The position numbers and the translations under genes were made by a program. From assembly GCF_003086295.3 (NCBI RefSeq), contig NC_092045.1:22914890-22978889 (forward strand): a stretch of DNA of 64,000 nucleotides. The letters run 5' to 3'. Shown piece by piece: positions 26,321-50,716 of the stretch. The notes below the pieces were generated by a model, which made no database searches, was not told where the DNA came from, and saw only the letters and a program-made list of their open reading frames with translations. The stretch is from Arachis hypogaea (taxonomy: Eukaryota; Streptophyta; Magnoliopsida; Fabales; Fabaceae). Numbering within the stretch: the first letter of the stretch is position 1; each line of letters opens with the position of its first letter.

Positions 26321-26322
26321 TC

Positions 26323-27194: not shown

Positions 27195-27281
27195 AATGAT
27201 CCTACCCTTGAATCTTCATAACCCATCTTTTTCTTCTGACACTCTCCACTATTTCCCTTGCTCAATGGCCAGTAACACCTT

Positions 27282-28640
27282 TCATAACGCTTCATCATTT
27301 TCATGAGCCTTTAGGAGTTCGGACTTAAAGTCACTTGAGATTTCTAATCGGCCCAAACACAGAGTTCCAGATACTTCTTGAGCACCAATTTTCAGACTCT
27401 CGAATTCTTCGATCAACTTCTCTTCTTGAAGCATCATCCAAGCCGCATACAACGACTTCCAACTTAACGCATCTGCCACTACATTCGCCCTTCCCGGATG
27501 GTAATTCAACTCAAAGTCATAGTCCTTCAATAATTCCATCTACCTCCTCTGCCTCATATTAAGCTCTTTCTGATCAAAGAGATATTTCAAGCTCTTGTGA
27601 TCAGAGAAGACTTGGAACTTAACCCCATAAAGATAATGCCTCCACACCTTCAAGGCAAACACAACCGCAGCGAGTTCCAAATCGTGCGTAGGGTAACTAA
27701 CTTCATGAGGTCTCAACTATCGTGAGGCATACGCCACCACATTATGATGCTGCATCAGCACGCACCCTAGACCCTTTAATGAGGCATCACAGTACACCTC
27801 AAATGGTTCGTTCGGCTCAGGTAACACCAACACAGGTGCAGTGGTCAACTTTTTCTTCAATGCCTGAAAGCTCTCCTCGCACTCAGGAATCCAAACAAAC
27901 GGAGTGTCTTTGTGGGTTAACTTTGTCAACAGTAAAGCTAATTGCGAAAAGCCTTTGATGAACCTTCGGTAATAGCCAGCTAAGCCCAGAAAACTCCTTA
28001 TCTCCATTACTGTGGTTGGTTGCTTCCATTCCATCACCACCTCCACCTTAGATGGATCAACTGCTATCCCCTGCTTACTCACTACATGCCCCAAAAACTT
28101 TACCTCCTCCTTCCAAAATTCACATTTGCACAGTTTTGCATAGAGTTTCTTCTCCTTTAGAATCTGCAACACGATTCTCAAGTGTTTCGCATGCTCTTAT
28201 TCAGTTTTGGAATAAATTAGTATGTCGTCAATGAAGACAACAACAAATTTATCCAAAAACGGATGAAAAACTCTATTCATGTAATCCATAAACAATGCAG
28301 GAGCGTTCGTCAACCCAAAAGACATTACAGTATACTCGTAATGACCATAACGAGTCCTAAAAGCGGTCTTAGGGATATCCTCATCCCTCACTCTTATCTG
28401 GTGATAACCAGATCACAAGTCGATCTTGGAGAAAACCCAGCTCCTTGTAACTGATCCATGAGATCATCAATTCTCGGCAACGGGTACTTATTCTTTATCG
28501 TGACCTTGTTCAGCTACCTGTAATCCACACAGAGCCGCATACTCCCATCTTTCTTCTTTACCAGTAGCACTGGCGCACCCCACGGTGAAACACTTGGTCA
28601 GATAAAATTCTTACCCAACAGATCCTCTAACTGAGATTTT
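27282..28640 (-). pseudogene. F reverse transcriptase and RNase H, broken
   Basis: RT blocks are [37 protein letters not shown] and the catalytic [15 protein letters not shown] (28391-28197). The thumb and linker contain [20 protein letters not shown] and [16 protein letters not shown]. RNase H begins [17 protein letters not shown] and continues to the HPGRANVVADALS block (27539-27282). In-frame stops follow YSKTE and VAYASR, and the MDEL region at 27540 starts a new piece. F[I/V]DDIL and the S-F-G-L-TNAP box fit chromovirus RT and differ from the FMDDFSVYG of A and B. Confidence 0.9.
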
Positions 28641-28647
28641 AGCTCGG

Positions 28648-29241
28648 TCATTTCCAGTGGTGACATCCTATAAGGAGCATTCGAGATTGGTCCAGCCCCA
28701 GGCACCAATTCAATAGCAAACTCAACCTCTCAGGTGGAAATTCATCAATGTCATCAGGAAACACTTCCGGAAACTCACACACTACCGAAATCTGATCCAA
28801 CCTTTTATCATCACCCGAAACACCCGCGGTTAACAATAGGATACCCTGACATTCAATTCTGGAACAGTTCACCATCATCGAATTTAAGTAATAATTATTC
28901 ACCACGACCGGCCCTTCTGTATCTTTCGGTATAAAGTATACCGACTTTGTAGAACAATCAAGCAGGACATGGTTCTCAGATAACCAGTCCAATCCCAAGA
29001 TAAGATCAAGACCGATCATCGGTAAGCAGATTAAATTATGGACAAAATCACGCTGCTTGAACCTAAACGAAACTATTGGGCATCCTAACCTAGTTACCAT
29101 GTCTTTATGGGTAGCATTATACACTTTTAGGTCATAACCTAAGGTTACGATCTTCAATCCTAACTCATGGGCTTTCTCAAATGCAATGAATGAATGCGAT
29201 GCTCCCGAATCAAATAAAGCATTTAAAGTTTGACCAGCCAT
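28648..29241 (-). pseudogene. F aspartic protease
   Basis: MAGQTLNALFDSGASHSFI carries the D-S-G-A-S active site, and DLILGLDWLSENHVLLDC is the usual second block. The frame then enters the RT linker ([16 protein letters not shown]) before shifting out of frame near 28730, where the C-terminal 25 residues no longer match the family. The protease would cleave the gag-pol precursor. Confidence 0.88.
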
Positions 29242-29253
29242 TTCACAGTTACC

Positions 29254-30336
29254 TCAAATGAGTGTCTCGAATCCCTCGGCACCTATAGCTGAGGTGGTGA
29301 ACACCCGACCAGTCTGTTGTGCTTTCCCAGCACCTTGTTTCTGCTTCTTCGGACAGTTTACGGCCTTATGTCCCGCCTTTCCATAATTGTAGCACAATCC
29401 CCATCCGGCCTTGCACGAGGCTCCCGGATGGTGGCTCCTACACCAAGCACAAGCTTGCTCATTCTGTGGATACTTCCCAACCCTTTTCCCTTGGGAGTTA
29501 TTGTTGTTGGGCTTCCTGAAAGAGCATCCCCTATTGAGAGGCAGACCTCTAGGTGCAAAGCTCTTCCCTCGGTTCTGTGGGAATGATCCTTTGTGACTCT
29601 CTCTCTCAGCAGCTGCCTTCTTCATGCACTATTCAGTAACTCTACACTTGTTCACCAACTCGGAGAAAGTTCTGATCTCCATTGGTCCTATTGAGCTGAA
29701 GATATCACTCCGGAGTCCTCCCTCATACTTAACGCACTTCCACTCCTTATAGTCTCCCAGAGTCCCCTGGCACATACGGGAGAACCTGAACAACTCCTCA
29801 AACTTGTCAGTATACTCAGATACAGACATAGTACCCTGCTTCAGCTGCAGTAACTCAAGTTCCTTAGCCATTTTAGCAGAAGTCGAAAAGTATTTCTTAT
29901 AGAACTCCTCCCGGAAGGCGATATAGCCATCCCCCTGCTGCAGAAGACGTCGGATACCTTGCCACCAATGCGACGCTTCACTAGTGACAAAATAAGTAGC
30001 AAACTCAACACGCTGTCCTTCCGGCACCACTTGCACTTGTAGTGCTTGCTCCATAGCCTAAAACCATGTATCGGCTTCAGTCGGGCTAGTAGTTCCCTTG
30101 AACTTAGGTGGATTAACCTTCAAGAAGTTTGCCAGTGTCATCGAGCCCTAAGCTCCGCCTCCGTCATTGCCATGCTTGTTCATTTGTTGCCCAAGAGCCG
30201 CAGCAGTGGCCTGCATAGCAGCAGCCATGTTCTCCAACACCGTCATAAAGTTTACCGGGTCATTAGGGTTAATCTCCGGTGCACGAGCATTAGTACGACC
30301 TCTCCCACGGCCTCTACCGCATCCACGAGGCGCCAT
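29254..30336 (-). pseudogene. F gag, broken, with a damaged zinc knuckle
   Basis: The probable start is MAPRGCGRGRGRGR at 30336. The pieces are 30336-30148, the core 30054-29629 (EASHWWQGIRRLLQ, TMSVSEYTDKFEELFRFS) and the nucleocapsid part 29625-29254. Stops separate the pieces at 30148 and 29629. The zinc knuckle reads CYNYGKAGHKAVNC, with Tyr where the second Cys should be (C-X2-C-X4-H-X4-C), so metal binding would be lost. An upstream C-AWC-RSHHPGASC block is also present. Gag would form the particle and bind RNA. Confidence 0.88.
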
Positions 30337-30538
30337 CTGGTCCCTATACACACCAAACAATCGATATTAAGTTGATCAGTCTCAATATCGGAAGTCTAGT
30401 GCTTCAAAGTCCCAAATGCATGCTCATGAACGTTTATGCCAATTATATCAAGCAGATATACTAATGGCACATAACACACATACAGAGAATGCACAGAAGC
30501 ATAGTCAGTCCGTCCCTCAGGCTCTACAGGAATGAACT

Positions 30539-30550
30539 ACTCTGATACCA
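30539..30550 (-). other. Primer-binding site of element F (tRNA-iMet type)
   Basis: Minus strand TGGTATCAGAGTAG begins three bases after the 5' LTR end; the initiator-Met primer is usual for Tekay/Del elements. Confidence 0.9.
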
Positions 30551-30553
30551 TAA

Positions 30554-33500
30554 TGTAACACCCTACCATACAGAGTCTTATGCTTAAGTAATAATTCAGA
30601 GATGGCAAGGTATTACAACCTCTAAAATAAAAAATTTAGTACGAATAGTATTGTAAAAAAAATTGATTATAACTAGGAGCCTTTTTAAGAAAAAGGGGTA
30701 AAACAATATTCGTAAGTCGAAAGCTTAATACTTCAATCGATAACGTAACGAACAAGGATAAACCAACGCGAGATTATATATACACAAAAGAGTGTCAAAA
30801 ATGGAAATATCAAAACTCAAAATCCGGTTGCGAAGATAACCAGTCCGAGCATAGCAATATATATATACAAGTAAATAAAATAAGGAAACCCCAAAGAAAC
30901 CCAAAGGGACACAAAGACAGAGAACCTATTCTCCAAAATCTCCTATAAGAGGAGTCATCACAATTTGTATTATTCAATGGAGATAAAAAGTATCTAAGAG
31001 AAATCATAAAATCAAAACAGGGTCTCGAGAATAAAGGATCTTCGTTAAACCAGAAGTCTCCAGCATGCTTCAGCGAGAAGCCTCACATCCTGCATCTGAA
31101 AACCACAAAATCCGCATGGGTGAGAACCAGAGGTTCACAGCATGGTAACACTTCTCACATATATAACATGTAATAATAGAGGAAAGCCGAAGGCAATCCT
31201 AGAACTTCTTCCAGATAAAATTAAAGCTTATAAACAAGCTAAACCATAAGTGGCAACTGGCTAAAGATCCTTCAGTCTAACTAATACTTCCATTTCCAAT
31301 TCCTTCAGACCTCCCAACCACTAGCAGGAGTATAATATAGCAAACACAGTTATTTCAGGCAAGAGATATACAAGTAGGAACAGATAAGGCACCTAGATAG
31401 ATAACAAGTAATATGCAGTCAAGTAGGCAATCTCAAACAATTCACAGAGTATGCATATGATGAATGCCTGTCCCTAATGGCTAATGATATCATCTATCAG
31501 TTATAGAGCCAACCCGACAAGTCCTGGTAGCTAACCATTGGACTGTCCCTCTATCGTGTCTCCCCAACTCGAGTTATACTCAATATAAACTTGATCATAA
31601 TCATGATCCATATCCATCACCCTCACTGGTGAATATTTATGGGGGTGAGCTCATCTGGGGCTTTCACAGTGCCTGGCCACTCTGACGACATAGGGTCAAA
31701 AGAGCTTCGAGTCTCAACCTGGAGCAGGTGGTGGTTAGCCAGTGCTTCCTCCCAGGGAAACTCTTATCTCCGATAGTTGAAGTGCAAACATTCACAATTC
31801 ATTCAATATTATATATGCATTTATTCTGAGCCATATTCATGGTTCCGCCGTAACACGGTAATAATCTAGCCATCCGACTCACGGTTAAATCTATAACCAG
31901 CCAATTCATTAAGAATTATGGCCCTTCGGCCCATGGCATAACAAGAACTTTCACCGCCATCCTCCGCATCTCACATAATCATCTTTGATCCTCATTGATC
32001 ATTCATTTTTCCCTTGCTTCAATCGCAAGTTACCACATCCCCTAGCTCCTTTTCTCATTTCTAGGCATATCATAATGATTTAAGACATAAGTGGTGAGAT
32101 CGGAGGCTTAGAAGTGTAAAATTTGGCTTTTAAAAATCAAAAATCAACTTTTGGATAAAAACAGGGCCACGCGTACGCGTACTCCAAGCGCACACGTGGA
32201 TGGCCACAAAGCTCATCGACGTGTATGCGTCATACACGCGGACGCGTGGATTGAAAAACAGCCAAAAGACGCGTACGCGTGGGTGCATTTGCCCCCCAGG
32301 CACAAAATTGGCACAACTCTGGCACAACTCTCGGAAAAATGGATGGGCATTTGGTGCAGCGCATCGACGCGCTTGCACACACCACGCGCACGCGTGGATG
32401 GTGCCTTCTTGAAGAATGACGCGTATGCGCCAAGTACGCCTACGCGCGGAGGGTCATTCTGCCAAAAATTTTCAAAGTTAAAAGCTGCAGAATTCACAGA
32501 TTCAACCCTAAATCTTCCGACGGACATAACTTTCTCATTTTAAATCGTTTTCTGCCCATTCTTCTAACAGCATGGACATCCCAGATCCAATTTCATTTCT
32601 AAACAAGTTTGGTACAAAACGGGGATTTGTAGTCCAAGTTATGTCCCGTCAAAGTATGCCCAAAAACTATGTTTTCATACAAAACCACAAGTTGCCATTT
32701 TCAAAACAAATCATTTTCAACTCTTTTCAAAATCAACCAAAACATACCAATTTCAACCCTTTTTGAAATCAATCTGTAAGACATAGAAAATTTTAGAAGA
32801 TTTTATTAAGAGCTAATTTAGATTTATTTATCATTAAGTATTTTAATCTTTGAAATTATTTTATTAAAGATAACTAAAACAAATTTTGATTAATTAAGTT
32901 TAAAGTAATTTAAGGTTTTATCTGATTTTATAATTACCGAATTATTTTCTATATTTAAATTAAAAAGTTTAGCAAATGAAAAATAATAAAAATTTTATAT
33001 GATTTTGGTTTAAATAATTGAGATTTCAGAATTTAATACAAATAATTTTATAAATAAAAAAATTAATTATATTACCTTATAATTTCAATTAGAATATTTG
33101 ATTTCAAATCAATTAATATTTTAATTTAATAAATAATATTGTAGAGTAATTTTAGAGATTCAGTTAGATTCTAGATTAACCTAAAATTCTCAATTTCATA
33201 CACACAAAACATTAATTTTACCCTAAATTAAATCCTAACCTCACAACCACTCACTATCCACCGCCCCCAAGACCTATACACCCACATACAGAAAAAATGA
33301 AGAAAGGGAAGAGAGAAGTGGGAAGAACCGAGTGGGGAGGTGGAAAGGGAGAGCACAGAGAGCAGAAGGAGGATAGAGAGAGGGGACGTGCTACTGCCGT
33401 CGTCCAATCGCCGCGCCACAGCCGCTATTTATGCGCCGTCATCGGTGACAAAGGGAGAGACAAAGTTCATGATGTAGGATGAGAAGAGAAGCCATCGTCG

Positions 33501-36500
33501 CGCATTGATTCTGGTTTTGCTGCGCCATCTCGCCGTCGAAGTCACAACCACCATCGCCGCCGAAGCCGCGCGTTTGTCCCTGGTCGCGCCGCCGCTGTCG
33601 AAGCCACTCCTACCACCGTTGCTACTAGGGTTTCGTACATCACCACTGCCATCGCCGCCGGTATGGTCGAAGCCACCGTTGCTGGTTTGGTCGGAGCCGT
33701 CGTCGTTGGTGAGAGAGAAAGGCTAGCCAGTTCTGCTTCTGGTTTCTAAAATCTGACAAGAACTCCACTGCAACTGCTGGAGTTGCTATTGCTGTTGCTC
33801 TGGCTCCATTTTAAACCTTTAAATCGCTACTGTTTTGGTAAGCCCTACCTTGTTTCTGATTCTTCCTTGTTCTACCAATTTGTTTTTATCTTAAAGCATG
33901 TTGTTGAAACTATTTGTATTGAATAAAGTGCTTATAGTAAGTTACATTGTCGTTGCTGCCACGGTCGCCTGTGAATCTTACACCGCCATCAAAGTTGAAG
34001 ATAGCACCAACCTTCTTCTTCTGGTTTTGATTTTCCTATTCTAGAACCTGTAAGCTTTAATCATTACTCTGCTTCCATTTTGTTTCTTAGTCTTTTTCTG
34101 TTCTGAGTAAAGAAAACCTATGTTTCTATTTAACACTGTTGCTCTACTTTCCCTGTTTGCTGATGGAATTATCATAGGTGATAGTATTAACGGTACTAAC
34201 GAGCTATTAGAGTTGCTGCCGCTGCTGAAATTAACAAAGATGGGATCATTGCGTTTAAATTCGACAGATTCGACTAATTGAGGTAGGGGCGCTTTTCCTT
34301 AAACTTGTTTTACTTTCCAAAGTTGTTATAAATCGATATTAATGCGTGAAATACATTCTTTGTGGTTTCTAAGTCTTATGAATTGAATTAAGTTGTTTTG
34401 GAAGAATGAGATTATTAGTTTGATTGATAGATTGATCGATTAAGAAAGTTGGGTATTTTGACTAGATGATTGATGTTGTTAAAGTGGTGTTCCTTGAATT
34501 ATTGGAAGAGATTTATTATTGGCATTTAGTTTAATTTTGGAAACGATTTGATTTTAGAAAAGATTTAGTATTAAAATTTGATTTGATATCGAACCCGATT
34601 TGATATCGAAATTTGATTTTAAAACAAATTTGGAAAGGACTTGATATTTGAAAACGGTTTGTTTATTGAGAATAATTTACTATTTTGGAAATGGTTCGAA
34701 TAGAGTTTGAGGAACAGTTTGGTTTGAAATTGTTTGAGAAAACCAAGAGTTCTTAATTATTGATTGATGCTGTTGATTGAGGTTGATCTAGATTGCGATT
34801 TATAGGATTGGTTGATTGGATTCTGGATTTTGCAATTTTCTTGGGTTGAGTGTGGTGGTTGTGAAAATTGTTATTGGAAGTGATTTGAATGATTAACAGG
34901 TGTTTGGTTTGGTTTGGTTGGGACCCGAAATGGGTGGCAGTGTCTGAGTTTTTAGAGAAGATGCTGCCGAAATTTTATAGAATTGGGAGTTTTATTTGAA
35001 GTAATTAATTAAAAAGATTTGTTTTTAAACATTATATGTTTTAAGATTACTTTATTTATCAAAGAAAGAATTATTTTTTGAATTGGAATTGTTAATGGAT
35101 GGTATGGAAAGAAGGATGATGAGGATTGATGAGGATTTTCTTTGAAATATGGTTTTTGAATGAATTTGGGAATGAGATTTGGATTGATGAATGATTATAT
35201 ATGATGTTGAGAATGTTGAGATATGATCTTTGAATTATTCATATGGCTTAGAAATTTGAAATATCTGAGATACGAGGTTCCTTGGATTAAGTGTCGTGGC
35301 TTGCCACCACGTGTACCAGGTTGAAAACTCGATACTCTGTTGACCCTACGACGTAAGTGTGACCGGGCACTATATAAATTCCAGGGAATGTTACCCCCAT
35401 TGAGCAATATTGATTATTTGAGAAAAAGCTATGCATAGACTCTTGGGGATGCACGTCGGGGGACAGTCTAAGGACAATTCAGACTTGTCGGGTTGGCTGG
35501 ATAACCGACAGATGTGCCTCGTCAGCCATAGGACAGGCATGCATCATATGCCTTTGTATGCTTTGTTTGGGTTTGAACTTGTTTAGGTTTGCCTAATTGC
35601 TAAACTGCTCTTAACTGCTACTTGATCTATTTGCTGTAACTGCTACCTACTTGTGCTTTCCTTGTCTGTCTTGCCTGTGTTTGTCCTGGCGTGCTACAGT
35701 TGAGAATGAACTTTGATGCTGAATTAATGATTGTGTTGTTTGATTGCGTGGTTGGTTTCTGATTGAGATTTTCTTTTAAGAAAGGAAAGGTTTCAGATTT
35801 CTGAAAGATTAAACATTGTTTCTTTGAAAAGGTTTTGAACGTTTACCTATTGGTTTTTAAAAGATTCATAAGGCAATGATAATTACTGGACTTGAAAACA
35901 GTTTTCTTATTAAATATCTTCTTATGACAACTTTGATACTCCATGGTGAGACCGTGTGGTTAGGTTCTCACCCCCTACAGCTTTACCTTTTCATGAACCG
36001 GATGAAGAAGCATTAAGAAGAGTTATACTACGTTTGGTTTATATGTTGTTGTATTAATTAGTTTATTTTCTTCCCTCGACTTTGTTATTACAAATTTGTA
36101 TGAGGGATAGGAATTGTATGTTTTATATGTATATTATATTATGAGTTATTATGTAAGGAGTCTTGTATATGAACCTATGTTTGTTTGTATTTTTCTTAAA
36201 ATAAGGTATTAATTCCCGGTTTTCAAAGAAATCAGCGATACAATGTCGAGTCACAGGCTCCTATTTTAGTATTTAGTATGTAAAGTAGTCGTAATACTTC
36301 TTGCTATCAGAGTAGCGCAGCCGGAAGCGTGACTTCTGATAGTGAGGGTGTTAACATCAAGCCTCCTCAACTCACACATCAACACTTCACCACGCACAAT
36401 CCACAAAACATCATCCCACCATTTTAACACTTCTCAATCAAATGGCTAAGAGACAAACACATAAACATGTCATACATACTTTCTCATCCCAATTTCCAAT

Positions 36501-37597
36501 AATACCATTTCCAATTAACCATCATTACACATACTCAATATCATACTCACCATCAACATGGTGTCACCCACAATTCAACCTCAATTACTCATCAAGCATA
36601 TATCACAACATGCATAATTCTCATACATCATACCATTAAGGCATCAATAATCATCATCACATATATGACCACATCATAGATCTCATCATTCAATAACATC
36701 AACAATTCAATGCCTAACTTAGGTCCTCTAGCCTAAATATTTCCCACCACATTACATATTAGATACGAGAAATCGAGACCATACCTTAGCCAATTTTCCA
36801 AGCTCAACCGGAGCACTTCCAAACAACTTTTCCTTAAGCTCTCAAGGTCTCAAAAACTCCAAGAACAGATTTTTGCATACAAAACCCTCTTTAAGCTTTT
36901 CAAAATCTCAATCAAGCTCAAATATTCACATATACACAACCTAAGCCACAATCATCATACCTATACACAACATCTCAATACCCAAACATCATAGAATAAC
37001 AAATTACACTAGGGTTGAAAATCTTACCACACCCAAGGTCCAAGGAAACAAGATTAATCTTCTCTTTCAAGAGAGTTGTGTCCTAAAACATCAAAGAGCC
37101 CAAAATCTCAATATTTTGTCCATAAAACTCGAAAACAAGCGCTGGAATTTCGAAGAGAAAAACGTGGCTTATCTCAAGATTGATTGTATGGGTTTTGTAG
37201 AGCTCTTCACAGTGAACGCGTGGCCACAAACGGTGCGACAATCGGAGCTCTAGATCAAAAGTTATGGTAGTTTGAAGATCAAATGAGAGAAAGAACTTGA
37301 GAGAGTGTTCTTCCCTCCATGGCCTCTATTTCAGCGTGTTTAGTGTCTCAAATGAGGAGAGAGAGTGCTAAAAACTAGGGTTTTGGTTTAGTTTAGTTGG
37401 GCCAAGGGCCCACTTTGGGTCCGGTTAGCCCGGTTTGGCCCGTTCGGTCCAATCTTGGTCCGATTTCTATAAAATTGGTACCGAAATTCTCGTCTCAATC
37501 TCCTCTATCATAATAAGCCATAAAAATCAAATTTTTAGCTTTCTAGAATAAATTCTCATTTATGGGTTAATTAGCCATTAATTAACCGGGTTTTACA
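30554..37597 (-). repeat. 5' LTR of element F (split by H)
   Basis: LTR parts are 30554-32774 and about 36354-37597, about 3.47 kb without H. Compared with the left LTR it has many substitutions and small indels, for example around 32165-32290 against 13503-13625. Confidence 0.88.
32775..36353 (+). mobile_element. Element H: solo LTR of a Tekay-like element
   Basis: The insertion interrupts the right LTR of F after GAAATCAATC. It starts TGTAAGACATAG and ends GATAGTGAGGGTGTTA, matching the LTR ends of this clade. It shares with the F LTR the order of blocks such as GACTTGTCGGGTTGGCTGGATAAC-like (near 35480; here plus strand) and the GGTTCTCACCC block (35960). No internal region or second LTR is present. 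A TATA-like CACTATATAAATTCC lies near 35368. ORFs at 33297-33726 are GC-rich and compositional. The exact right end (36353 to 36356) is uncertain, and no 5-bp TSD is found. Confidence 0.75.
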
Positions 37598-37748
37598 ATT
37601 TACAAGAGGACCACAGCTTGCTTCAAGCCCACAATCTCCGTGGGATCGACCCTTACTCACATAAGGTATTACTTGGACGACCCAGTGCACTTGCTGGTCA
37701 GCTGCGCAGAGTTGTGAGAAAAGTGTGAGCTCACGATTTCGTGTACCA
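37598..37748 (+). repeat. U5 end of the K 5' LTR (151-bp fragment)
   Basis: ATTTACAAGAGGACC to TTCGTGTACCA; matches the reverse complement of 4825-4975. Its first five bases, ATTTA, are one half of a TAAAT target duplication whose partner is at 62825-62829. Confidence 0.88.
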
Positions 37749-37754
37749 AGTTTT

Positions 37755-37772
37755 TGGCGTCGTTGCCGGGAA
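37755..37772 (+). other. Primer-binding site of element K
   Basis: TGGCGTCGTTGCCGGGAA, a tRNA-Asp-type site with small changes from TGGCGCCGTTGCCGGGGA, six bases after the LTR end. Confidence 0.85.
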
Positions 37773-39253
37773 TTGTTTGAGTTTGGACAACTGATGGTTC
37801 ATCTTGTTGCTTAGATGAGGTAATTTTCTTCTTGTTCTATTTTCAAAAATTTTTCAAAAATCTTTCAAAAATTTTTTTTCTAATTTTCTCAAAATAACAA
37901 AAAATTTCTAATAAAATCATAAAATCAAAAATTTTTTATTTCTTGCTTGAGTCTGGAGTCAAAATTTAAGTTTGGTGTCAATTACATGTTTTTATTTTTC
38001 TAGCATTTTTTCGAAAACTCATGCATATGTTCTTCTTGATATTCAAGTTGTTCTTGATGATTGTCTTTGTTTGATCTTGTGATTTTCTTGTTTTGAGCCT
38101 TTTCTTGTTTTTCATATGCATTTTTAATTTGTGAGTGTCTAAGCATTAAAAATTTCTAAGTTTGGTGTCTTGCATGTGTTTCCTTTCTTAAAAATTTTTC
38201 AAAAATAGGTTCTTGATGTTCACCATGATCTTCAAAGTGTTCTTGGTGTTTATCTTGACATTCAAAGTGTTCTTGCATGTTTTCTTTGTGTTGATCTTAA
38301 TTTTTCATGTCTTGAGTCAATTTGTTAGTTTTCTCTTTCCTCATTAAAATTCAAAAAAATAAAAAAAGATCTTTTTCTTATTTCACTTATAAAATTTCGA
38401 AATTTTGGGTTGACTTACTCAAAATTTTTTAAAACTTAGTTCTTTCTTGTTAGTTAAGTCAAATTTCAATTTAAAAATTCTATCTTTTCAAATCTTTTTC
38501 AAAAATCAAATCTTTTTCATTTTTCTTCTTAATATTTTCGAAAATTTTAAAATTGATTTTCAAAATCTTTTTCTTATTTTCATTTCATATTTTCGATTAC
38601 TTTACTAACAATTAATGTTTTGATTCAAAAATTTCAAGTTTGTTACTTTCTTGTTAAGAAATGTTCAATCTTTGAATTCTAGAATCATATCTTTTAGTTT
38701 CTTGTTAGTCAAGTCATCAACTTCAATTTTCAAAATGAAATCTTTTTAAATTTCTTTTTCAAATATTTTTCAAAAAAATTTCAATCATATCTTTTTCAAA
38801 ACTTAATTTCAAAATCTTTTTCTAACTTCTTATCTTTTCAAATTTTATTTCAAATCTTTTTCAATTAACTACTTTTCTCTCTCTAATTTTCGAAAACCAC
38901 TAACAACTTTTTCAAAAACCTTTTTAATTAACTAATTATTTTAAACTCTAATTTTATTTTATTTTTCTCCTAATTTTTGAATTCTAACTAATATTTAAAA
39001 TAAAAACAAAAATATTTTTCCTTTTCCTTTTATTTAATATTCGAATTCCCTCTCTCTCATCTCTTTCTATTTATTTATTTATTTACTAGCACTTCTCTCC
39101 TTCTTAAAAAAATTCGAACCCTCTCTCCCTCTATGTGTTTGAATTCTCTTTATTTTCTCTCTATCTCATTCTTCTCTTCTTCTACTCACATAAAGGAATC
39201 TCTATACTGTGACATAGAGGATTCCTCTTCTTTTCTGTTCTCTTCTTTTTCAC
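37773..39253 (+). other. K leader (5' UTR)
   Basis: About 1.5 kb, very T-rich, with no ORF. It has two copies of TAAGTTTGGTGTC (37967-37979, 38157-38169), the family's PPT-like motif. A CT-rich stretch precedes the gag ATG. Confidence 0.7.
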
Positions 39254-39412
39254 ATGAGCATGAACAAGGATAAGGATATTCTTGTTGAAGCCGATCCTGA
39301 ACCTGAAAGGACTCTGAAGAGGAAGCTAAGAGAAGCTAAAGCACAACTCTCTGGAGAGGACCTGACAGAAATTTTCGAAAAAAAAGAAGACATGGCAGCC
39401 GAAAATAATAAC
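39254..39412 (+). pseudogene. Start of K gag, truncated by the TRIM
   Basis: ATG at 39254 begins MSMNKDKDILVEADPEPERT and runs to MAAENNN, where the frame is cut at 39412 by the TRIM. The downstream gag is at 11887-9912 on the other strand. The Glu/Pro/Arg-rich head differs from the shorter MDLSG start of A and B. A true start at one of the two close Met codons (39254 or 39260) cannot be decided. Confidence 0.7.
39408..39412. other. Second half of the ATAAC target duplication
   Basis: ATAAC immediately before the TRIM end TGTAATAGCC. It pairs with 11883-11887 beside F. Confidence 0.75.
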
Positions 39413-39426
39413 TGTAATAGCCCAGA

Positions 39427-39431
39427 CCACC
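39427..39431. other. TSD of element B (left copy)
   Basis: CCACC, repeated at 62398-62402. The intact site CAGACCACCCGCTAGCA occurs in the sister TRIM LTR at 62639-62655. Confidence 0.95.
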
Positions 39432-40822
39432 TGATGAGCGGATAATTTATACGCTTTTTGGCATTGTTTTTAGTATGTTTTTAGTATGATTTAGTTAGTT
39501 TTTAGTATATTTTTATTAGTTTTTAGTTAAAATTCACTTTTCTGGACTTTACTATGAGTTTGTGTGTTTTTCTGTGATTTCAGGTATTTTCTGGCTGAAA
39601 TTGAGGGTTCTGAGCAAAAATCTGATTCAGAGACTGAAAAGGACTGCAGATGCTGTTGGATTCTGACCTCCCTGCACTCGAAGTGGATTTTCTGGAGCTA
39701 CAGAAGCCCAATTGGCGCGCTCTCAACGGCGTTGGAAAGTAGACATTCTGGGCTTTCCAGCAATATATGATAGTCCATACTTTGCTCAAGATTTGATGGC
39801 CCAAACCGGCGTGACAAATCAGCCTCAGAAATTCCAGCGTTTAACGCTGGAACTGGCATAAAACTTGGAGTTAAACGCCCAAACTGGCATAAAAGCTGGC
39901 GTTTAACTCCAGAAAAGGTCTCTACACGAAAATGCTTCATTGCTCAGCCCAAGCACACACCAAGTGGACCCAGAAGTGGATTTTTACGTCATTTACTCAT
40001 TTTTGTATACCCTTAGGTTACTAGTTTACTATTAATAGGATCTTTTGACATTGTATCTGTACCTCATGACACTTTACACGTTTTCTTTGTGTATCTTCCA
40101 TGGCATGAGTCTCTAAACCCCATGGTTGGGGGTGAGGAGCTCTGCTGTGTCTTGATGGATTAATGCAATTACTACTGTTTCTCATTCAATCATGCTTGCT
40201 TCCATTCTAAGATAATACTTGTTCTTAACCCGGATGAATGTGATGATCCGTGACAATCATCATCATTCTCAACTATGAACGTGTGCCTGACAACCACCTC
40301 CGTTCTACCTTAGATTAAGTAGTTATCTCTTGGATTCTTTAACCAGAATCTTCGTGGTATAAGCTAGAACTGATGGCGGCATTCAAGAGAATCCGGAAGG
40401 TCTAAACCTTGTCTGTGGTATTCTGAGTAGGATTCAATGATTGGATGACTGTGACGTGCTTCAAACTCCTAGCAGGCGGGGCGTTAGTGACAGACGCAAA
40501 AGAATCATTGGATTCTATTCTGGCCTGACCGAGAACCGACAGATGATTAGCCATGTTGTGACAGAGCATAGGAACATTTTCATTGAGAGGATGGGAGGTA
40601 GCCATTAACAACGGTGAAACCCTACATACAGCTTGCCATGGAAGGAGCCTTGCGTGTTTGATGAAGAAGACAGTAGGAAAGCAGAGATTCAGAGGATGGA
40701 GCATCTCCAAAACCTCAACCTATTCTCCATTACTGCAAAACAAGTACTTATTTCATGTTCTTTTGCTTTTCGCAATCAATCCTGATAATTTCTGATATCC
40801 TGACTAAGATTTACAAGATAAC
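39432..40822 (+). repeat. 5' LTR of element B, first part
   Basis: Starts TGATGAGCGG. Continues at 52252 after element A and one copy of ATAAC. A TATA-like TACTATTAATAGG lies near 40030. Copies of GCGTTTAACGC lie near 39838-39905. Confidence 0.95.
40818..40822. other. TSD of element A (left copy)
   Basis: ATAAC, repeated at 52247-52251. Joining the flanks gives AAGATAACCATAGC, the uninterrupted sequence at 62257-62270 of the other LTR. Confidence 0.96.
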
Positions 40823-42354
40823 TGGTGCACGAAATTGCAATCACACTTTTGCAATCCCGCACAACTAACCAGCAAGTGTACTGGGTCGTCCAAGTAATAC
40901 CTTGCGTGAGCAAGGGTCGATCCCACAGAGATTGTCGGCTTGAAGCAAGCTATGGTTATCTTGTAAATCTTAGTCAGGATATCAGAAATTATCAGGATTG
41001 ATTGTGAAAAGCAAATGAACATGAAATGATTACTTGTTTTGTAGTAATGGAGAATAGGTTGAGGTTTGGAGATGCTCCATCTTCTGAATCTCTGCCTTCC
41101 TACTGTCTTCTTCTTCAAACACGCAAGTCTCCTTCCATGGCAAGCTGTATGTAGGGTTTCACCGTTGTCAATGGCTACCTCCCATCCTCACAGTGAAAGC
41201 GATTGCATATGCTCTGTCACAGCATAGCGGAATTCATCTGTCGGTTCTCAATCAGGCCGGAATAGAATCCAGTGATTCTTTTACGTCTGTCACTAACGCC
41301 CCGCCTTCAGGAGTTTGAAGCTCGTCACAGTCATTCAATCATTGGATCCTACTCAGAATACCACAGACAAGGTTTAGACCTTCCGGATCCTCTTGAATGC
41401 CGCCATCAATTCTAGCTTATACCACGAAGATTCCGGTTAAAGAACCCAAGAGATAACTACTTAATCTAAGGTAGAACGGAGGTGGTTGTCAGGTACACGT
41501 TCATAGTTGAGAATGATGATGATTGTCACGGATCATCACATTCATCCGGGTTAAGAACAAGTATTATCTTAGAATGGAAGCAAGCATGATTGAATGAGAA
41601 ACAGTAGTAATTGCATTAATCCATCAAGACACAGCAGAGCTCCTCACCCCCAACCATGGGGTTTAGAGACTCATGCCGTGGAAAGTACACAAAAAAGGGT
41701 GTAAAGTATCATGAGGTCATAAGGTATAGATACAATGTCAAAAGATCCTATTAATAGTAAACTAGTAGCCTAGGGTGTACAGAAATGAGTAAATGACGTA
41801 AAAATCCACTTCTGGGTCCACTTGGTGTGTGCTTGGGCTGAGCAATGAAGCATTTTCGTGTAGAGACCTTTTCTGGAGTTAAACGCCAGCTTTCAAGCCA
41901 GTTTGGGCGTTTAACTCCAAGTTTTATGCCAGTTCCGGCGTTTAACGCTGGAAATTCTGAGGCTGATTTGCCACGCCGGTTTGGGCCATCAAATCTTGGG
42001 CAAAGTATGGACTATCATATATTTCTGGAAAGCCCAGGATGTCTACTTTCCAATGCCATTGAGAGCGCGCCAATTGGGCTTTTGTAGCTCCAGAAAATCC
42101 GCTTCGAGTGCAGGGAGATCAGAATCCAACAGCATCTGCAGTCCTTTTTTTGTCTCGGAATCAGATTTTTGCTCAGGACCCTCAATTTCAGCCAGAAAAT
42201 ACCTGAAATCACAGAAAAACACACAAACTCATAGTAAAGTCCAGAAAAGTGAATTTTAGCTAAAAACTAACAAAAATGTACCAAAAACTAACTAGATTAT
42301 ACTAAAAACATACTGAAAACAATGCCAAAAAGCATACAAATTATCCGCTCATCA
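40823..42354 (-). repeat. 3' LTR of element A
   Basis: 1532 bp; TG...CA on the element strand (TGATGAGCGG...GTGCACCA). Confidence 0.96.
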
Positions 42355-43391
42355 CAACACCAAACTTAAATTGTTGCTTGTCCCCAAGCAACTGAAAATC
42401 AAAATAGGATAAAAAGAAGAGAATATACTATAGACTCCAAAATATCAAGGAAACATAGTTCCAATTAGATGAGCGGGACTAGTAGCTTTTTGCCTCCGAA
42501 CAGTTTTGGCATCTCACTCTATCCTTTGAGGTTCAGAATGATTGGCATCTATAAGAACTCAGACCTCAGATAGTGTTATTGATTCTCTTGGTTGAGCATA
42601 ATGATTCTTGAACATAGCTAGTGTATGAGTCTTGGCTGTGGCCCAAAGCACTCTGTCTTCCAGTATTACCACCGGATACATTCATGCCACAGACACATAA
42701 TTGGGTGAACCTTTTCAGATTGTGACTCAGCTTTGCTAAAGTCCCCAATTAGAGGTGTCCAAGGTTCTTAAGCACACTCTTGTTGCCTTGGATCACAACT
42801 TTATTTCTTTCTTTTTCTTTTTCTTTTCTTCTTCTCTTTTCTTTTTTTTTCGAATTTTTTTTTTTGTATCCACTGCTTTTTCTTGCTTCAAGAATCAGTC
42901 TAATGATTTTAGATCCTCAATAACAGTTCTCTTTTTCCTCATTCTTTCAAGAGCCAACAATTTTAACATTCTCAAAACAACAAATTCAAGAGACATATGC
43001 ACTGTTCAAGCATTCATTCAGAAAACAAAAAGTATTGTCACCACATCAAACTAATTCAACTAGTTTCAAGGATAAATTTTGAAATCCTGTACTTCTTGTT
43101 CTTTTGTGATTAAAGCATTTTTCATTTAAGAGAGGTGATGGATTCATAGGACATTCATATCTTTAAGGCATAAAATTTCAATTTTATTAATTATGAATTA
43201 AAACAAGACTCAAAAATAGATATAAAATGAGACTAGAAAAAAACGAAAAATAAAAACAAAACAAAGAAAAAAAACGCAAACATAGGCTCCTAATGATAGA
43301 GGTTTTCACAGAGTTAGGACTCAACAACCTTGATTTTGAGAAGTGGATGCTCCCTCAACTTGAGATGAGAGCTTTTGGCGTTTCTTGGAGT
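42355..43391 (-). other. A 3' untranslated region
   Basis: Next to the LTR the element strand reads TTTAAGTTTGGTGTTG (PPT position), preceded by the GGGGACAAGCAA hairpin. A T/C-rich low-complexity stretch lies at 42805-42870. No credible ORF. Confidence 0.7.
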
Positions 43392-44246
43392 TCACGCCCC
43401 TTGTCCTTCCATTGACTTCTTGGTGATTGGATGTTCAATAGGTATGAATTCATCTGCTCCCATCTTCACTCCAGCCTCTTTACAGAGCAAGGAGATCAGG
43501 CTTGGATAAGCCAATTTGGTTACAGTGGAATTCTTATTTGCAATTGTGTAGATCTCACAAGCAATCACATGATGAACCTCCACTTCTTTTCCAAGCATAA
43601 TGCAATGAATCATCACTGCCCTCTTGATGGTGACCTCAGAACGGTTGCTAGTGGGCAATATGGAACGCCCAATAAAGTCTAGCCACCCTCTTGCAATTGG
43701 CTTGAGGTCTCCCCTCTTGAGTTGGTTTGGGACACCCTTTGAATTGGTTATCCACTTAGTCCCAGGGAGGCATATGTCCTCTAGAACTTGATCCAACCCT
43801 TTATCTACTCTCACCATCCTCCTATTGAAGGAGTCAGGATCATCTTGCAGTTGAGGTAGTTTGAAGATTTCTCTTATTTTGTCCAGATGGAAGTACATAA
43901 CTTTCCCTCTGACCATGGTTCTGTAGGTATGGTAAGCAGTTCCAGTCATTCTCTGCTTATCTGTTAGCCACAGATTAGAGTAGAATTCCTGAACCATGTT
44001 CCTTCCAACCTTTATTTCAGGATTGGTCAGGACTTCCCATCCTCTGTTTCGAATTTGCTCTTGGATCTCCGGATATTCATCTTTTTTCAGATCAAATTTA
44101 ACTTCCGGGATCACTGACCTCAGACCCATTATTTTGTGATAATGGTCTTCATGTTCTTTGGTTAAGAACTTCTCTTGATTCCAAAGATTCTTTGGATTAG
44201 TCTCTTTCTTTCCTCTTGAGTTGGTTTGTTTTCCCTTAGGAGCCAT
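43392..44246 (-). CDS. ORF2 of A: putative plant transposon protein, C-terminus deleted
   Basis: The start is MAPKGKQTNSRGKKETNP at 44246; upstream in-frame codons to 44291 are in the presumed leader. The basic N-terminus is followed by the family blocks IPEVKFDLKKDEYPEI, NRGWEVLTNP, MVRGKVMYFHLDKIREIF, DKGLDQVLEDICLPGTKW, LKPIARGWLDFIGRSI, LPTSNRSEVTIKRAVMIH and EHPITKKSMEG. In B the protein continues about 85 residues beyond MEGQ into a coiled coil. In A a deletion of roughly 190 bases joins GGACAA to the downstream AGGGGCGTG and ends the frame at MEGQGA. The middle domain is open, but the multimerisation tail is gone. The role in the element's life cycle is unknown. Confidence 0.85.
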   Translation of the reverse strand: MAPKGKQTNSRGKKETNPKNLWNQEKFLTKEHEDHYHKIMGLRSVIPEVKFDLKKDEYPEIQEQIRNRGWEVLTNPEIKVGRNMVQEFYSNLWLTDKQRMTGTAYHTYRTMVRGKVMYFHLDKIREIFKLPQLQDDPDSFNRRMVRVDKGLDQVLEDICLPGTKWITNSKGVPNQLKRGDLKPIARGWLDFIGRSILPTSNRSEVTIKRAVMIHCIMLGKEVEVHHVIACEIYTIANKNSTVTKLAYPSLISLLCKEAGVKMGADEFIPIEHPITKKSMEGQGA

Positions 44247-44398
44247 GATCTTGATGAATCTTGGCTTAGTGATCACGGAAAAGCACACCAAACTTAGAGG
44301 TTTTGCTTGTCCTCAAGCAAAAAGAGAAGAAAGAAGAGAAGAGAGAGAGAGGAAGAGGAAATTCGAATGGTGTGGTGGAAAGAGGAAGCCAAACACGA

Positions 44399-44405
44399 AT
44401 TTATA
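44399..44405 (-). promoter_or_regulatory. Possible internal TATA box upstream of A ORF2
   Basis: Minus strand CCTTATAAATTCG, about 153 bases upstream of the ATG at 44246, with a CT-rich stretch in between. Confidence 0.5.
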
Positions 44406-44659
44406 AGGTGAGGGGGAGAGTTTTTTTTTTCGAAAGAAAAAGAGAGATTTGAAAGGAGATTTGAGAAGATATGGAAAGAAATTGAGAAAAGGGTGAGTTT
44501 TTGAAGAAGATTTGGGATTAATTTGAAATAGATTTGAAGAATGGTTTTGATTTGTGAAGATTTGAAAGTGAATGATGAAAGGTTGAAGTGCATTTATGTA
44601 GAAGAGTATGGGTAAAAAGAGGAAAGTTTGAAAAAAATTGAGTTGAAAACAAAAATGTG

Positions 44660-44975
44660 GTCCCCCCACCTTTCTGGCGTTAAACGCCCAGAATGGCACC
44701 CATTCTGGCGTTTAACGCCCAATTGCTACCCCTTTTGGGCGTTTAACGCCCAGCCAGGTGCCCTGGCTGGCGTTAAACGCCAGAAAGCCTTTATCACTGG
44801 GCGTTTTTCAAAGCGCCCAGGATGCTGCACACCTGGCGTTAAACGCCCAGAATGGTGCCCATTCTGGCGTTTAACGCCCAAAATGGCACCATTCCTGGCG
44901 TTAAACGCCCAGAATGGTACCCATTCTGGCGTTTAACGCCCAAAATGCCCCTTACTGGCGTTTTTTCGCCAGTAA
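44660..44975 (-). repeat. GGCGTTTAACGCC palindrome array of element A
   Basis: About ten copies, alternating GGCGTTAAACGCC and GGCGTTTAACGCC, linked by CAGAATGG-ACCATTCTG spacers which are themselves inverted repeats. One copy is altered (GGGCGTTTTTCAAAGCGCCC) and the last is GGCGTTTTTTCGCC. Frames through it are repeat-derived. Confidence 0.93.
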
Positions 44976-45078
44976 GCTCATTTTCTCTGCTTTTTGAGCT
45001 GAATCCTTCTGTAACTCTGTGAATTCCTTCATTTTTGATATTTGCCTCTGTAAGAACTAATCATATAACCTCCTAATG

Positions 45079-45105
45079 ACTGGGTTGCCTCCCAGCAAGC
45101 GCTTC
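45079..45105 (-). other. Conserved TGGGAGGCAACCCA hairpin motif, A copy
   Basis: Minus strand GAAGCGCTTGCTGGGAGGCA then ACCCAGT, about 32 bases after the pol stop at 45138. Confidence 0.75.
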
Positions 45106-45137
45106 TTTACTGTCTTTAGCTGGACTTTCACTGAGAA

Positions 45138-48100
45138 TCACTCAAGTCTCAGTTTTGAGCATTCTTGCTCAAAGTTACCTTCAAGATAATGCTTGATTCT
45201 CTGTCCATTAACAATGAACTTTTTGTCAGAATCAATATCCTGAAGCTCAACATATCCATATGGTGACACTCCTGTAATCACATACGGACCCCTCCACCGG
45301 GATTTGAGTTTTCCTGGAAACAGTCTGAGCCTAGAGTTGAAGAGCAGGACTTTTTGTCCTGGCTCAAAGACTCTGGTTGACAACTTCTTGTCATGCCATT
45401 TCTTTGCCTTTTCCTTATAAATTTTTGCATTTTCAAAGGCATTGAGTCTGAACTCCTCTATCTCATTTAGCTGGAGCAGTCTTTTTTCACCAGCTAACTG
45501 TGCATCCATGTTTAGGAATCTGGTTGCCCAGTAGGCTTTATGTTCCAGTTCCACAGGCAAATGACAGGCCTTCCCATACACCAGTTGGTATGGAGAGGTT
45601 CCTATAAGAGTCTTGAATGCTGTTCTGTATGCCCACAGAGCATCATCCAAGCTCTTTGCCCAATCCTTTCTTCGGGCTATCACAGTCCGTTCCAGGATTC
45701 TCTTTAGCTCTCTGTTAGAGACTTCAGCTTGCCCATTTGTCTGTGGATGATACGGATTTGCCACTTTGTGGCTAATTCCATATCTTACCATAGCAGAGTA
45801 TAGCTGTTTATTGCAGAAATGAGTTCCCCCGTCACTGATTAGCACTCTGGGAATGCCAAACCTGCTGAAAATGTTTTTCTGGAGGAATTTCAGTACGGTC
45901 TTTGTATCATTAGTGGGTGTAGCAATTGCTTCTACCCACTTAGATACATAGTCCACTGCCACCAGAATGTAAGTGTTTGAGTATGACGGTGGGAATGGCC
46001 CCATGAAGTCAATTCCCCATACATCAAACAATTATATCTCTAATATCCCTTGTTGAGGCATGGCATATCCATGAGGCAGGTTACCAGCTCTTTGGCAACT
46101 GTCACAGTTACGCACAAACTCTCGGGAGTCTTTATAGAGAGTAGGCCAGTAGAAGCCACATTGGAGGACTTTAGTGGCTGTTCGCTCACTTCCAAAATGT
46201 CCTCCATACTGTGATCCATGGCAGTGCCATAGGATCCTTTGTGCTTCTTCTCTGGGTACACACCTGTGGATCACTCCGTCAGCACATCTCTTAAAGAGAT
46301 ATGGTTCATCCCAGAGGTAGTACTTGGCATCTGAAATTAATTTCTTTCTCTGCACGTAGCTGTACTCTTTGGGAATGAACCTCACAGCTTTAAAATTTGC
46401 AATATCTGCAAACCATGGAGCTTCCTGAATGGCAAATAGTTGCTCATCTGGGAAAGTCTCAGAAATCTCAGTAGAAGGGAGGGACGCCCCAGCTACTGGT
46501 TCTATTCGGGACAGATGATCAGCTACTTGGTTCTCTGTCCCTTTTCTGTCTCTTATTTCTATATCAAACTCTTGCAGAAGCAACACCCATCTGATGAGCC
46601 TGGGTTTTGAATCCTGCTTTGTGAGTAGATACTTAAGAGCAGCATGGTCAGTGTACACAACCACTTTGGATCCCACTAGATAGGATCTAAACTTGTCAAT
46701 GGCATAGACCATTGCAAGTAACTCTTTTTCTGTGGTTGTGTAGTTCTTCCGTGCGTCATTTAGAACACGGCTGGCATAGTAAATGACGTGCAGAAGCTTG
46801 TTATGCCTCTGTCCCAATACTGCACCAATGGCATGGTCACTGGCATCACACATTAGTTCAAATGGCAATGTCCAATCTGATGCAGAGATGACTGGTGCTG
46901 TGACCAGCTTAGCTTTCAGGGTCTCAAACGCCTGCAGACACTGTGTGTCAAACACAAATGGTGTGTCAGCAGCTAACAGGTTACTCAGAGGTTTTGCAAT
47001 TTTTGAAAAATCCTTTATAAACCTTCTGTAGAACCCTGCATACCCCAGAAAGCTTCTGATTGCCTTAACATTGGCAGGTGGTGGTAATTTTTCAATTACC
47101 TCTACCTTTGCCTTATCCACCTCTATTCCCTTGTTTGAAATTTTGTGCCCAAGAACAATTCCTTCAGTCACCATAAAGTGACATTTCTCCCAGTTTAAAA
47201 CCAGGTTAGTCTCTTGGCATCTTTTCAAGACAAGTGCTAGGTGATTAAGACAGGAGTTAAAAGAGTCTCCATATACTGAAAAGTCATCCATGAAGACTTC
47301 CAGAAATTTCTCTACCATATCTGAGAAGATAGAGAGCATGCACCTCTGAAAGGTTGCAGGTGCATTGCACAGACCAAAAGGCATCCTCCTATAGGCAAAC
47401 ACGCCAGAAGGGCAAGTGAATGCTGTTTTCTCTTGGTCCTGAGGATCTACTGCAATTTGGTTATAGCCTGAATAGCCATCCAAAAAGCAGTAATAATCAT
47501 GGCCAGCTAGTCTTTCTAGCATTTGGTCTATGAATGGTAAAGGAAAATGATCCTTTCTGGTGGCTGTATTGAGCCTTCTGTAGTCAATACACATGCGCCA
47601 CCCTATGACTGTCCTTGTAGGAACCAGTTCATTTTTTTCATTATGAACCACTGTCATGCCTCCCTTTTTGGGAACAACTTGGACAGGGCTCACCCAGGGG
47701 CTATCAGAAATAGGATAAATAATCCCAGCCTCTAGTAATTTAGTGACCTCTTTTTGCACCACCTCCTTCATGGCAGGATTTAGCCTCCTCTGTGGTTGGA
47801 CCACTGGTTTGGCATTATCCTCCAATAGGATCTTGTGCATGCATCTAGCTGGGCTAATGCCCTTAAGATCACTTATGGACCACCCAAGAGCTGTCTTGTG
47901 TGTCTTTAGCACTTGAATCAGTGCTTCCTCTTCCTGTGAATTTAAAGCAGAGCTTATAATCACTGGAAATGTGTCACCCTTTCCCAGAAATGCATATTTC
48001 AGGGATGGTGGTAGTGGTTTGAGTTCAGGCTTGGGAGGCTTATCCTCCTCCTGAGGAATTTTCGAAAATTCCTTTGCCTCCTCTAGTTCATCTTGATCAG

Positions 48101-50144
48101 GTTGAGCATCTTTGAAGATGTCCTCAAGCTCTGATTCTAGGCTTTCAGCCATATTGATCTCTTCTACCAAGGAGTCAATAATGTCAGCGCCCATGCAGTC
48201 ATTTGGTGTGTCTGGATGCTGCATAGCTTTTACAGCATTCAACTTGAACTCATCCTCATTGACTCTTAGGGTTACTTCCCCTTTGTGTACATCAATGAGA
48301 GTTCGTCCAGTTGCTAGGAAAGGTCTTCCTAGAATGAGAGTTGCACTCTTGTGCTCCTCCATTTCCAGCACTACAAAGTCAGTGGGAAAGGCGAATGGCC
48401 CAACCTTGACAATCATGTCCTCAATTATGCCTGATGGGTATTTAATGGAGCCATCAGCAAGTTGGAGGCATATCCGGGTTGGTTTGACTTCTCCAGTCAA
48501 CCCAAGCTTTCTGATAGTGGATGCAGGTATTAGATTGATGCTTGCTCCAAGATCACATAGGGCTGTCTTGGTGCAGGCACCTTCTAATGTGCATGGTATC
48601 ATAAAGCTCCCTGGATCTTGAAGCTTTTCTGGTAAGCTCTTTAATATGACTGCACTGCATTCTTCAGTGAGAAACACTTTTTCAGTTTCTCTCCAATCCT
48701 TCTTATGACTTAAGATTTCTTTCATGAATTTAGCATAAGAAGGTATTTGCTCAAGTGCCTCTGCAAACGGAATCTTTATTTCAAGAGTCCTTAGATAGTC
48801 TGCAAAGCGGGCAAATTGCTTATCCTGCTCTGCTTGGCGGAGTTTTTGAGGATAAGGCATCTTGGCTTTATATTCTTCAACCTTAGATGCTGCAGGTTTA
48901 TTCCTTACAGAAGTGGTTGAAAAAGCCTTGTTAGAGGGATTACTGTCAGCACTCTCAGGTGTCTGATTCTCCCTAGGCGTCTGAACGCCAGGATTGGGAG
49001 GAAATTGGGCGTTTAACGCCAACTTTTCCCCCTTTTCTGGCGTTTGAACACCAGAACTGGGCAAGGAATGGGCGTTTAACGCCAGCTTTCCTTCCCTTTC
49101 TGGCGTTTGAACGCCAACGACATTCCTCTCTGGGCTCTTACTGTCCTCAGAGGGATTTTGAACAGTAGTTTGGTTGTCCTCTGTCAATTGTTCCTTGTTT
49201 GGCTTTTTACTTTTTTGAGCAGTGTTATTCAGGGTCTTCCCACTCCTCAATTGAACTGCTTGACATTCCTCTGTTATCTGTTTAGATATTTGCTGTTTTG
49301 CTTGATTCAACTGCAGTTCTATGCTCTTGTTAGCAACTTTAGTTTCATAGAGCATCTCTTTAAAGTCAGCTAACTGTTCTGTCATCAGGAGCAATTGTTG
49401 ATTAAGCTCAGTTATCTGTTCTTGAGGACTAGGGTCAGTGACTACTGCCATGACTTCCTCTTTTGGAGAGAACTCATTGCTAGAGTACAAATATTGGTTT
49501 CTAACAACAGTGTCTATAAGCTCTTGAGCTTCTTCAATTGTCTTCCTCATGTGTATAGATCCACCAGCTGAGTGGTCTAAAGACATCTGAGCTTTTTCTG
49601 TAAGCCCATTGTAGAAAATGTCTAACTGTACCCACTCTGAAAACATTTCAGAGGGACATTTCCTTAGCATACCTCTATACCTCTCCCAGGCATTATAAAG
49701 GGATTCATTATCCTCTTGTTTAAAGCCTTGGATGTCCAGTCTTAACTGTGTCATCCTTTTTGGAGGGTAAAAATGATTCAGGAATTTGTCTGATAACTGT
49801 TTCCATGTCTTTATGCTTGCTGTAGGTTGGTTATTCAACCACCTTTTAGCTTGATCTTTTACAGCAAATGGAAACAGTAATAGTCTGTAGACATTCTGAT
49901 CTACCTCTTTATCATGTACTGTGTCAGCAATTTGTAAAAACTGTGCCAGAAACTCAGTAGGTTCTTCCTGTGGAAGACCGGAATACTGGCAATTTTGCTG
50001 CACTATGATAATGAGTTGAGGATTTAGTTCAAAGCTGCTTGCTTTGATGGGAGGTGTACAGATGCTACTCCCATATGCAGCTGTAATGGGGTTAGCATAT
50101 GACCCAAGAGTCCTTTTGGACTGATTAATCCCACTTAAGTCCAT
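45138..50144 (-). pseudogene. gag-PR-RT-RNase H-IN polyprotein of A, one in-frame stop
   Basis: A single frame of about 1,668 codons from the ATG at 50144 to 45138 is interrupted only by TAA at 46032-46034. B has Glu at that point. Gag occupies roughly residues 1-400 and has no zinc knuckle. The linker encodes the palindromes as GVQTPE and LALNAQ. Protease is at about 525-620 (ALCDLGASINLIP, LILGRPFLATGRTLID). RT runs from about 800 ([16 protein letters not shown] near 883, [27 protein letters not shown] near 950). RNase H has [12 protein letters not shown] near 1098 and [10 protein letters not shown] near 1160. Integrase starts near 1298 ([14 protein letters not shown]). After the stop come [22 protein letters not shown] and [16 protein letters not shown]. 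Readthrough or recent loss are both possible; mutation is simplest. Confidence 0.92.
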
Positions 50145-50692: not shown

Positions 50693-50710
50693 TCCTCGGC
50701 AACGGCGCCA
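50693..50710 (-). other. Primer-binding site of element A
   Basis: Minus strand TGGCGCCGTTGCCGAGGA; one base differs from the site in B and D (GGGGA). Confidence 0.9.
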
Positions 50711-50716
50711 AAAACT

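Follow-up and report, generated by a model that had tools for sequence, protein, structure and literature searches.

A flipped retrotransposon segment with target-site duplications shared crosswise between a gypsy element and a TRIM in Arachis hypogaea

Organization of the locus

The window, by which we mean the whole stretch of 64,000 nucleotides analysed here (Arachis hypogaea, RefSeq assembly GCF_003086295.3, contig NC_092045.1, forward-strand positions 22,914,890 to 22,978,889), is a nest of LTR retrotransposons (Table 1). An older retrotransposon, the host element, reads on the minus strand and holds two further elements, F and a TRIM, one on either side of a piece of the host element itself, K, so that the order between 11887 and 62825 is F, K, TRIM. 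K, with its primer binding site (PBS) at 37755 (one mismatch), reads on the plus strand, opposite to the rest of the host element. The host gag has 66 relatives, the closest with 83% identity, and the named ones come from Arachis hypogaea (34), A. ipaensis (4), A. stenosperma (1) and Saponaria (1). About 483 bp of the host 3' LTR (5508-5990) are missing from the host 5' LTR. A minus-strand ORF with a PF20167 domain (Transposase_32, putative plant transposon protein) is found at 7808-8500, presumably within the host element, and another one with the same domain at 18306-19778, within E1.

Table 1. Positions of the elements, their parts and the duplications in the window.
Feature	Position	Strand	Basis
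Host element 3' LTR, as far as matched	4819-6318	-	Window self-comparison
Host element gag continuation, left of F (stretch examined)	10900-11887	-	
Duplication A, one half, GTTAT, at F left (U5) end	11883-11887	+	
F, old Ty3/gypsy LTR retrotransposon	11888-37597	-	LTR pair, ends, Pfam domains
F 3' LTR, contains E1	11888-25854	-	
E1, young LTR element in F 3' LTR; duplication ACGCG, left copy 14988-14992	14993-25470	-	
F internal region	25855-30553	-	
F integrase core, piece	26635-26898	-	Pfam; rve match below curated cut-off
F integrase, zinc-binding	26838-27215	-	Pfam
F RT/RNase H	27717-28196	-	Pfam; RVT_1 match below curated cut-off
F protease (RVP_2), aspartic protease	28648-29253	-	Pfam
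F gag	29629-30057	-	Pfam
F 5' LTR, contains E2; PBS-like TTATGGTATCAGAG at inner edge	30554-37597	-	
E2, 3578-bp insertion in F 5' LTR	32775-36352	.	
K, inverted 1815-bp piece of host element (LTR end, PBS, leader, gag start)	37598-39412	+	
Duplication B, one half (inverted), ATTTA, at F right (U3) end	37598-37602	+	
Duplication A, other half (inverted), ATAAC, at TRIM left (U5) end	39408-39412	+	
TRIM	39413-62824	-	LTR pair and PBS
TRIM 3' LTR, in two parts	39413-39431 + 62403-62559	-	
E3, young LTR element in TRIM 3' LTR; duplication CCACC	39432-62397	+	
E4, young LTR element in E3 5' LTR; duplication ATAAC	40823-52246	-	
TRIM PBS TGGTATCAGAGC	62615-62626	-	
TRIM 5' LTR, 196 bp	62629-62824	-	
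Tandem duplication, 314 bp, over the TRIM right end/host LTR junction	62646-63273 (62646-62959, 62960-63273)	.	
Duplication B, other half, TAAAT, at TRIM right (U3) end	62825-62829	+	
Remaining part of host element 5' LTR, continues beyond the window	62825-64000	-	

Element F measures ~11.65 kb after removal of the nested E1 and E2. Pfam matches were obtained for five of the eight pieces of its internal region that were scanned; the succession of gag, protease, RT, RNase H and integrase, in that order and between LTRs, is that of a Ty3/gypsy element, although the reading frames are broken and the RVT_1 and rve matches stay below their cut-offs. NCBIfam, run on five F pieces, returned a single match, to an IS481 transposase model, far below cut-off. 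The insertion E2 has no duplication and replaces 16 bp that are present in the other F LTR (14112-14127); a Pfam scan of four of its five ORFs of at least 80 amino acids gave one weak match, under the cut-off.

The TRIM is 441 bp long once E3, E4 and one copy of the E3 duplication are set aside. It thus shows the features of its class, namely a length below 1 kb, an LTR pair, a PBS and a target-site duplication (TSD) of 4-6 bp, the latter readable only crosswise; its size suggests that it has no coding capacity. The 314-bp tandem copies over its right end differ at 13 sites (7/135 + 6/179), so the insertion of the TRIM predates the tandem duplication. The latter is therefore old, and it may be linked to the rearrangement described below. 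E4, with a duplication copy at 40818-40822, lies 4 bases past the ATTTA of the E3 LTR that corresponds to site B of the host LTR (4971-4975, see below). The E4 and site-B insertions are independent and occupy nearly the same LTR position; E4 and duplication A also have the 5-mer ATAAC in common.

Junctions and target-site duplications

At the left end of F, GTTAT is followed by TGTAACACCC, and at its right end GGGTTTTACA is followed by ATTTA. In the case of the TRIM, ATAAC precedes TGTAATAGCCC on the left and TAAAT follows GGGCTTTACA on the right. The 5-mers agree crosswise only: the two flanks of F mismatch each other and so do those of the TRIM, but the left flanks of the two elements are reverse complements of one another, and the right flanks are too. 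When four window positions were drawn at random 2,000,000 times, such a double crosswise match arose in 5 draws. All four element termini are complete and without filler, with 5 bp duplicated at each of the two sites, A in the host gag and B in the host LTR. As a control, the other complete nested LTR elements (E1, E3 and E4) have ordinary matching duplications in 3/3 cases. In wheat, a TSD with two mismatches or fewer is lacking in 12-20% of full-length candidates, and in 36% in the case of Cereba (complements of 80-88% and 64% given in a section of PMC9744471). Mismatched TSDs alone are not rare; it is their reciprocal agreement that makes this locus conspicuous.

Site B is documented independently by the 3' LTR of the host element, which contains it uninterrupted (TAAAT, 4971-4975). 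If a single TAAAT is kept and the LTR end of K is attached directly to the LTR on the far side of the TRIM, the restored sequence aligns over 286/286 bases to 4819-5105 with 93.4% identity and one single-base gap, located far from the join. In contrast, the unrestored sequences flanking the TRIM align to this LTR over 135 of the 286 bases only. At site A, with one ATAAC retained, the gag of K (...MAAENNN) is in one frame with the gag portion to the left of F (NNAR.MLGDY...), a frame that five extra bases would break, and the gag match left of F (frame f0) starts at the first residue after the join. Eight of the host-gag relatives were aligned: six span site A and are continuous there, and two start downstream. 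The run of Asn residues at this site varies by a few residues among the relatives, and site A is thus defined through the 5-mer and the frame and is not proven to the single base.

The earlier note on this DNA had proposed that K is flipped, with TSDs swapped between F and the TRIM, and that every breakpoint coincides with an element terminus. The former is borne out by the reading of the four junctions, the site B alignment and the frame at site A, and the latter by the four exact termini.

Two other orders of events were considered and rejected: an inversion preceding both insertions, since both 5-mers occur twice and flank element ends, and an insertion of F within an older TRIM, as no remnant of the TRIM is found beside F.

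Relatedness and ages of F and the TRIM

The terminal bases of the 5' LTRs of F and the TRIM agree at 9/10 positions at each end, and in respect to the TRIM 3' LTR the termini of F agree at 8/10. The two elements share the PBS TGGTATCAGAG, which we take to be of the tRNA-Met type; those of K, E1, E3 and E4 are of the TGGCGC type. Both elements lie on the minus strand, as judged by the positions of their PBS. The similarity of the starts is not very specific, given that F and the unrelated E1 have 8/10 start bases in common; at the ends they agree at only 2/10. Beyond the termini, no alignable similarity was found between the F LTR and the TRIM (the best match is 13 bases, E 4.3). To call F and the TRIM unrelated, as the earlier note does, is accordingly too strong, as they have terminal bases and PBS in common. 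These shared features, together with the common orientation, make one integration complex for both elements more plausible, and one integrase could have served both.

In respect to age, the K2P divergence between the LTRs is 0.0605±0.0044 for F (199 differences over 3445 comparable sites) and 0.067±0.021 for the TRIM. For the host LTR it is 0.067±0.009 (862 sites) and, at the K end, 0.053±0.019 (156 sites). Neither the TRIM nor the host differs from F (Fisher p 0.74 and 0.65, respectively), and the ages of the three are equal within error; the TRIM LTR is short, which makes this weak support for simultaneity. The first tandem copy and the 3' LTR differ by 0.095±0.028 in a short comparison of 135 sites. 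For the 314-bp tandem duplication, a younger age than that of F is not significant (p 0.31), which likewise limits the weight of the agreement in age.

Possible histories of the inversion

One integration event, in which two cDNAs exchanged partners, is in our judgement the best explanation of the locus, and we hold it to be about evenly poised between right and wrong; the simultaneity, the common integrase and the mispairing are all what we infer from the end product. One integrase, possibly that of a single particle, would have acted on the cDNAs of both F and the TRIM. The U5 ends (the left ends of both elements) would have been paired at site A, and the U3 ends (the right ends of both) at site B, 1.8 kb away. 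Each pair would then have performed the ordinary 5-bp staggered joining, with GTTAT and TAAAT doubled by gap filling. Since each cDNA would connect A with B, the segment between the sites would become inverted and each element would be left with one half of each duplication. The exact termini, the two 5-bp duplications, the lossless site B, the intact and non-chimeric elements and their same orientation are all in line with such an event. What counts against it is that integrases do not usually act on a U3-U3 pair, and that it is drawn from a single case. In a representative concerted-integration assay, described in a portion of PMC11054761, free viral-end oligonucleotides serve as donor. By our own reasoning from this assay, an integrase can pair the ends of separate molecules. 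Intasomes of foamy virus favour DNA breaks and gaps, according to a section of PMC10624929, and we merely suggest that this preference might attract a further integration to the site of a recent one.

In the main rival, which we regard as a real possibility, if somewhat less than probable, F and the TRIM would have entered sites A and B, respectively, by ordinary insertions, and K would have been flipped exactly, either later or during gap repair. For the flip, K would have been excised and put back in the opposite orientation, with end joining or template switching acting at TTACA/TGTAA. This course of events ends in the same sequence, the flipped K taking one copy of each duplication with it, and that identity stands against the crossed integration; as the end products are the same, sequence alone cannot decide between them. 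The facing ends of F and the TRIM do have the 5-bp inverted repeat TTACA/TGTAA, and a local rearrangement is known from the vicinity of the TRIM, where the 314-bp tandem duplication (13/314 differences) spans the other junction. However, in the present sequence the last 3 kb of F, which include part of E2, form 1168 inverted 5-mer pairs with the TRIM, and 9 such pairs link the final 100 bases of F to the initial 100 of the TRIM; with so many pairs, TTACA/TGTAA has no special claim unless the ends themselves are special. Moreover, both breakpoints of a flip must hit the element termini exactly, without loss of bases, while HIV ends joined by the host are often truncated and accompanied by large duplications or deletions, as stated in a portion of PMC5041404. 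The proposal of the earlier note that the ends of two cDNAs joined the wrong partner sites predicts the order and the duplications, and it provides the best explanation, but it is not proven, because insertion plus flip gives the same sequence.

An assembly error, in which the 1.8-kb piece between two repeats would have been put in the wrong way round, is improbable. The region is a nest of repeats, in which assemblers can fail, but the window contains no N, and misassembly would have had to produce two junctions at exact termini with complementary 5-bp duplications, a match that only 5/2,000,000 random quadruples reach. Each of the nested E1, E3 and E4 is bounded by a duplication of its own, though E2 in F is not. 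Homologous recombination of the kind known from Drosophila Galileo and einkorn RLG_Cereba, in which the partners are inverted copies from a single family, is in our view very improbable at this locus. It is the known explanation of exchanged duplications at inversions (passages of PMC2775673), non-allelic homologous recombination usually leaves elements with non-identical TSDs (excerpts of PMC8225341), and LTR elements are capable of it, since einkorn Cereba copies in opposite orientation gave rise to an inversion (a section of PMC10447253). Nevertheless, it needs elements of the same family, oppositely oriented before and chimeric after the event, at both breakpoints, and F and the TRIM are different, both on the minus strand and each with its own LTR pair. 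Comparison of the window with itself (matches of at least 150 bp) detected no F sequence of that length at the TRIM site, or the reverse. That ordinary recombination between inverted copies does not fit, as was also noticed earlier, agrees with the own LTR pairs, the same strand and the non-chimeric state of both elements.

Comparison with known systems

In the 2z3 inversion of D. buzzatii, ectopic recombination between oppositely oriented Galileo copies led to exchanged TSDs and chimeric elements, as described in parts of PMC2775673. The present locus resembles it in having an inverted segment, an element at each breakpoint and swapped TSD halves. Unlike Galileo, where the elements are of the same family, oppositely oriented and both chimeric, F and the TRIM are different LTR elements in the same orientation, and neither is chimeric. 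The alternative (reversed-ends) transposition of Ac/Ds, in the account given by a section of PMC8225341, likewise brings the ends of two elements into one joining reaction, with an inversion and exact termini as the outcome. There, however, chromosomal DNA transposons are cut and one new matching TSD results, whereas crossed integration at our locus would involve two new cDNAs, two sites and two TSDs. Alternative transposition of Class II elements as such does not describe the locus, where F and the TRIM are LTR elements with a PBS and two TSDs are present.

Aberrant integration of HIV and ASLV, as far as covered in the consulted portion of PMC5041404, is similar in that rearrangement of the flanking DNA is linked to integration, inversion being less frequent. 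One viral end is then joined by the host, is often truncated, and the duplications are usually much larger than the 5-bp repeat; here, four complete termini and 5-bp duplications are found. In size (below 1 kb), LTRs, short duplication and lack of coding capacity (here suggested by the size), the TRIM is like the elements described in sections of PMC4717578, in which no relative encoding a retrotransposase was found for 278 of 289 TRIM subfamilies. Unlike in those subfamilies, one TRIM insertion appears here to be bound physically to a gypsy element whose ends are similar. In the open-licence literature consulted, which includes few subscription papers, no report was found of TSDs exchanged between LTR elements of two different kinds, nor of the mispairing of such elements that crossed integration requires; this does not prove absence.

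Implications

Exchanged TSDs at inversions are already known for recombination within one family; here they occur at two different, non-chimeric LTR elements. We tentatively describe the locus, with slightly less confidence than would tip the scales, as an LTR-retrotransposon counterpart of alternative transposition, in which the cDNA ends of a gypsy element and of a TRIM, paired by one integrase complex, were joined crosswise to two sites separated by 1.8 kb, with inversion of the DNA between them. If crossed integration did take place, a Class I analogue of alternative transposition, reached by another route, would exist, and the integration of retrotransposons could itself invert chromosomal DNA in one step, which an Ac/Ds paper (PMC8225341, in the section consulted) reserves for cut-and-paste elements. 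F or a close relative would then have supplied the integrase for this TRIM, and swapped duplications between unlike LTR elements would be a fossil of integrase sharing that can be searched for. The observation would then bear on the question of which autonomous elements move TRIMs and, if confirmed, would be useful as a physical trace of an integration shared by a TRIM and a gypsy element.
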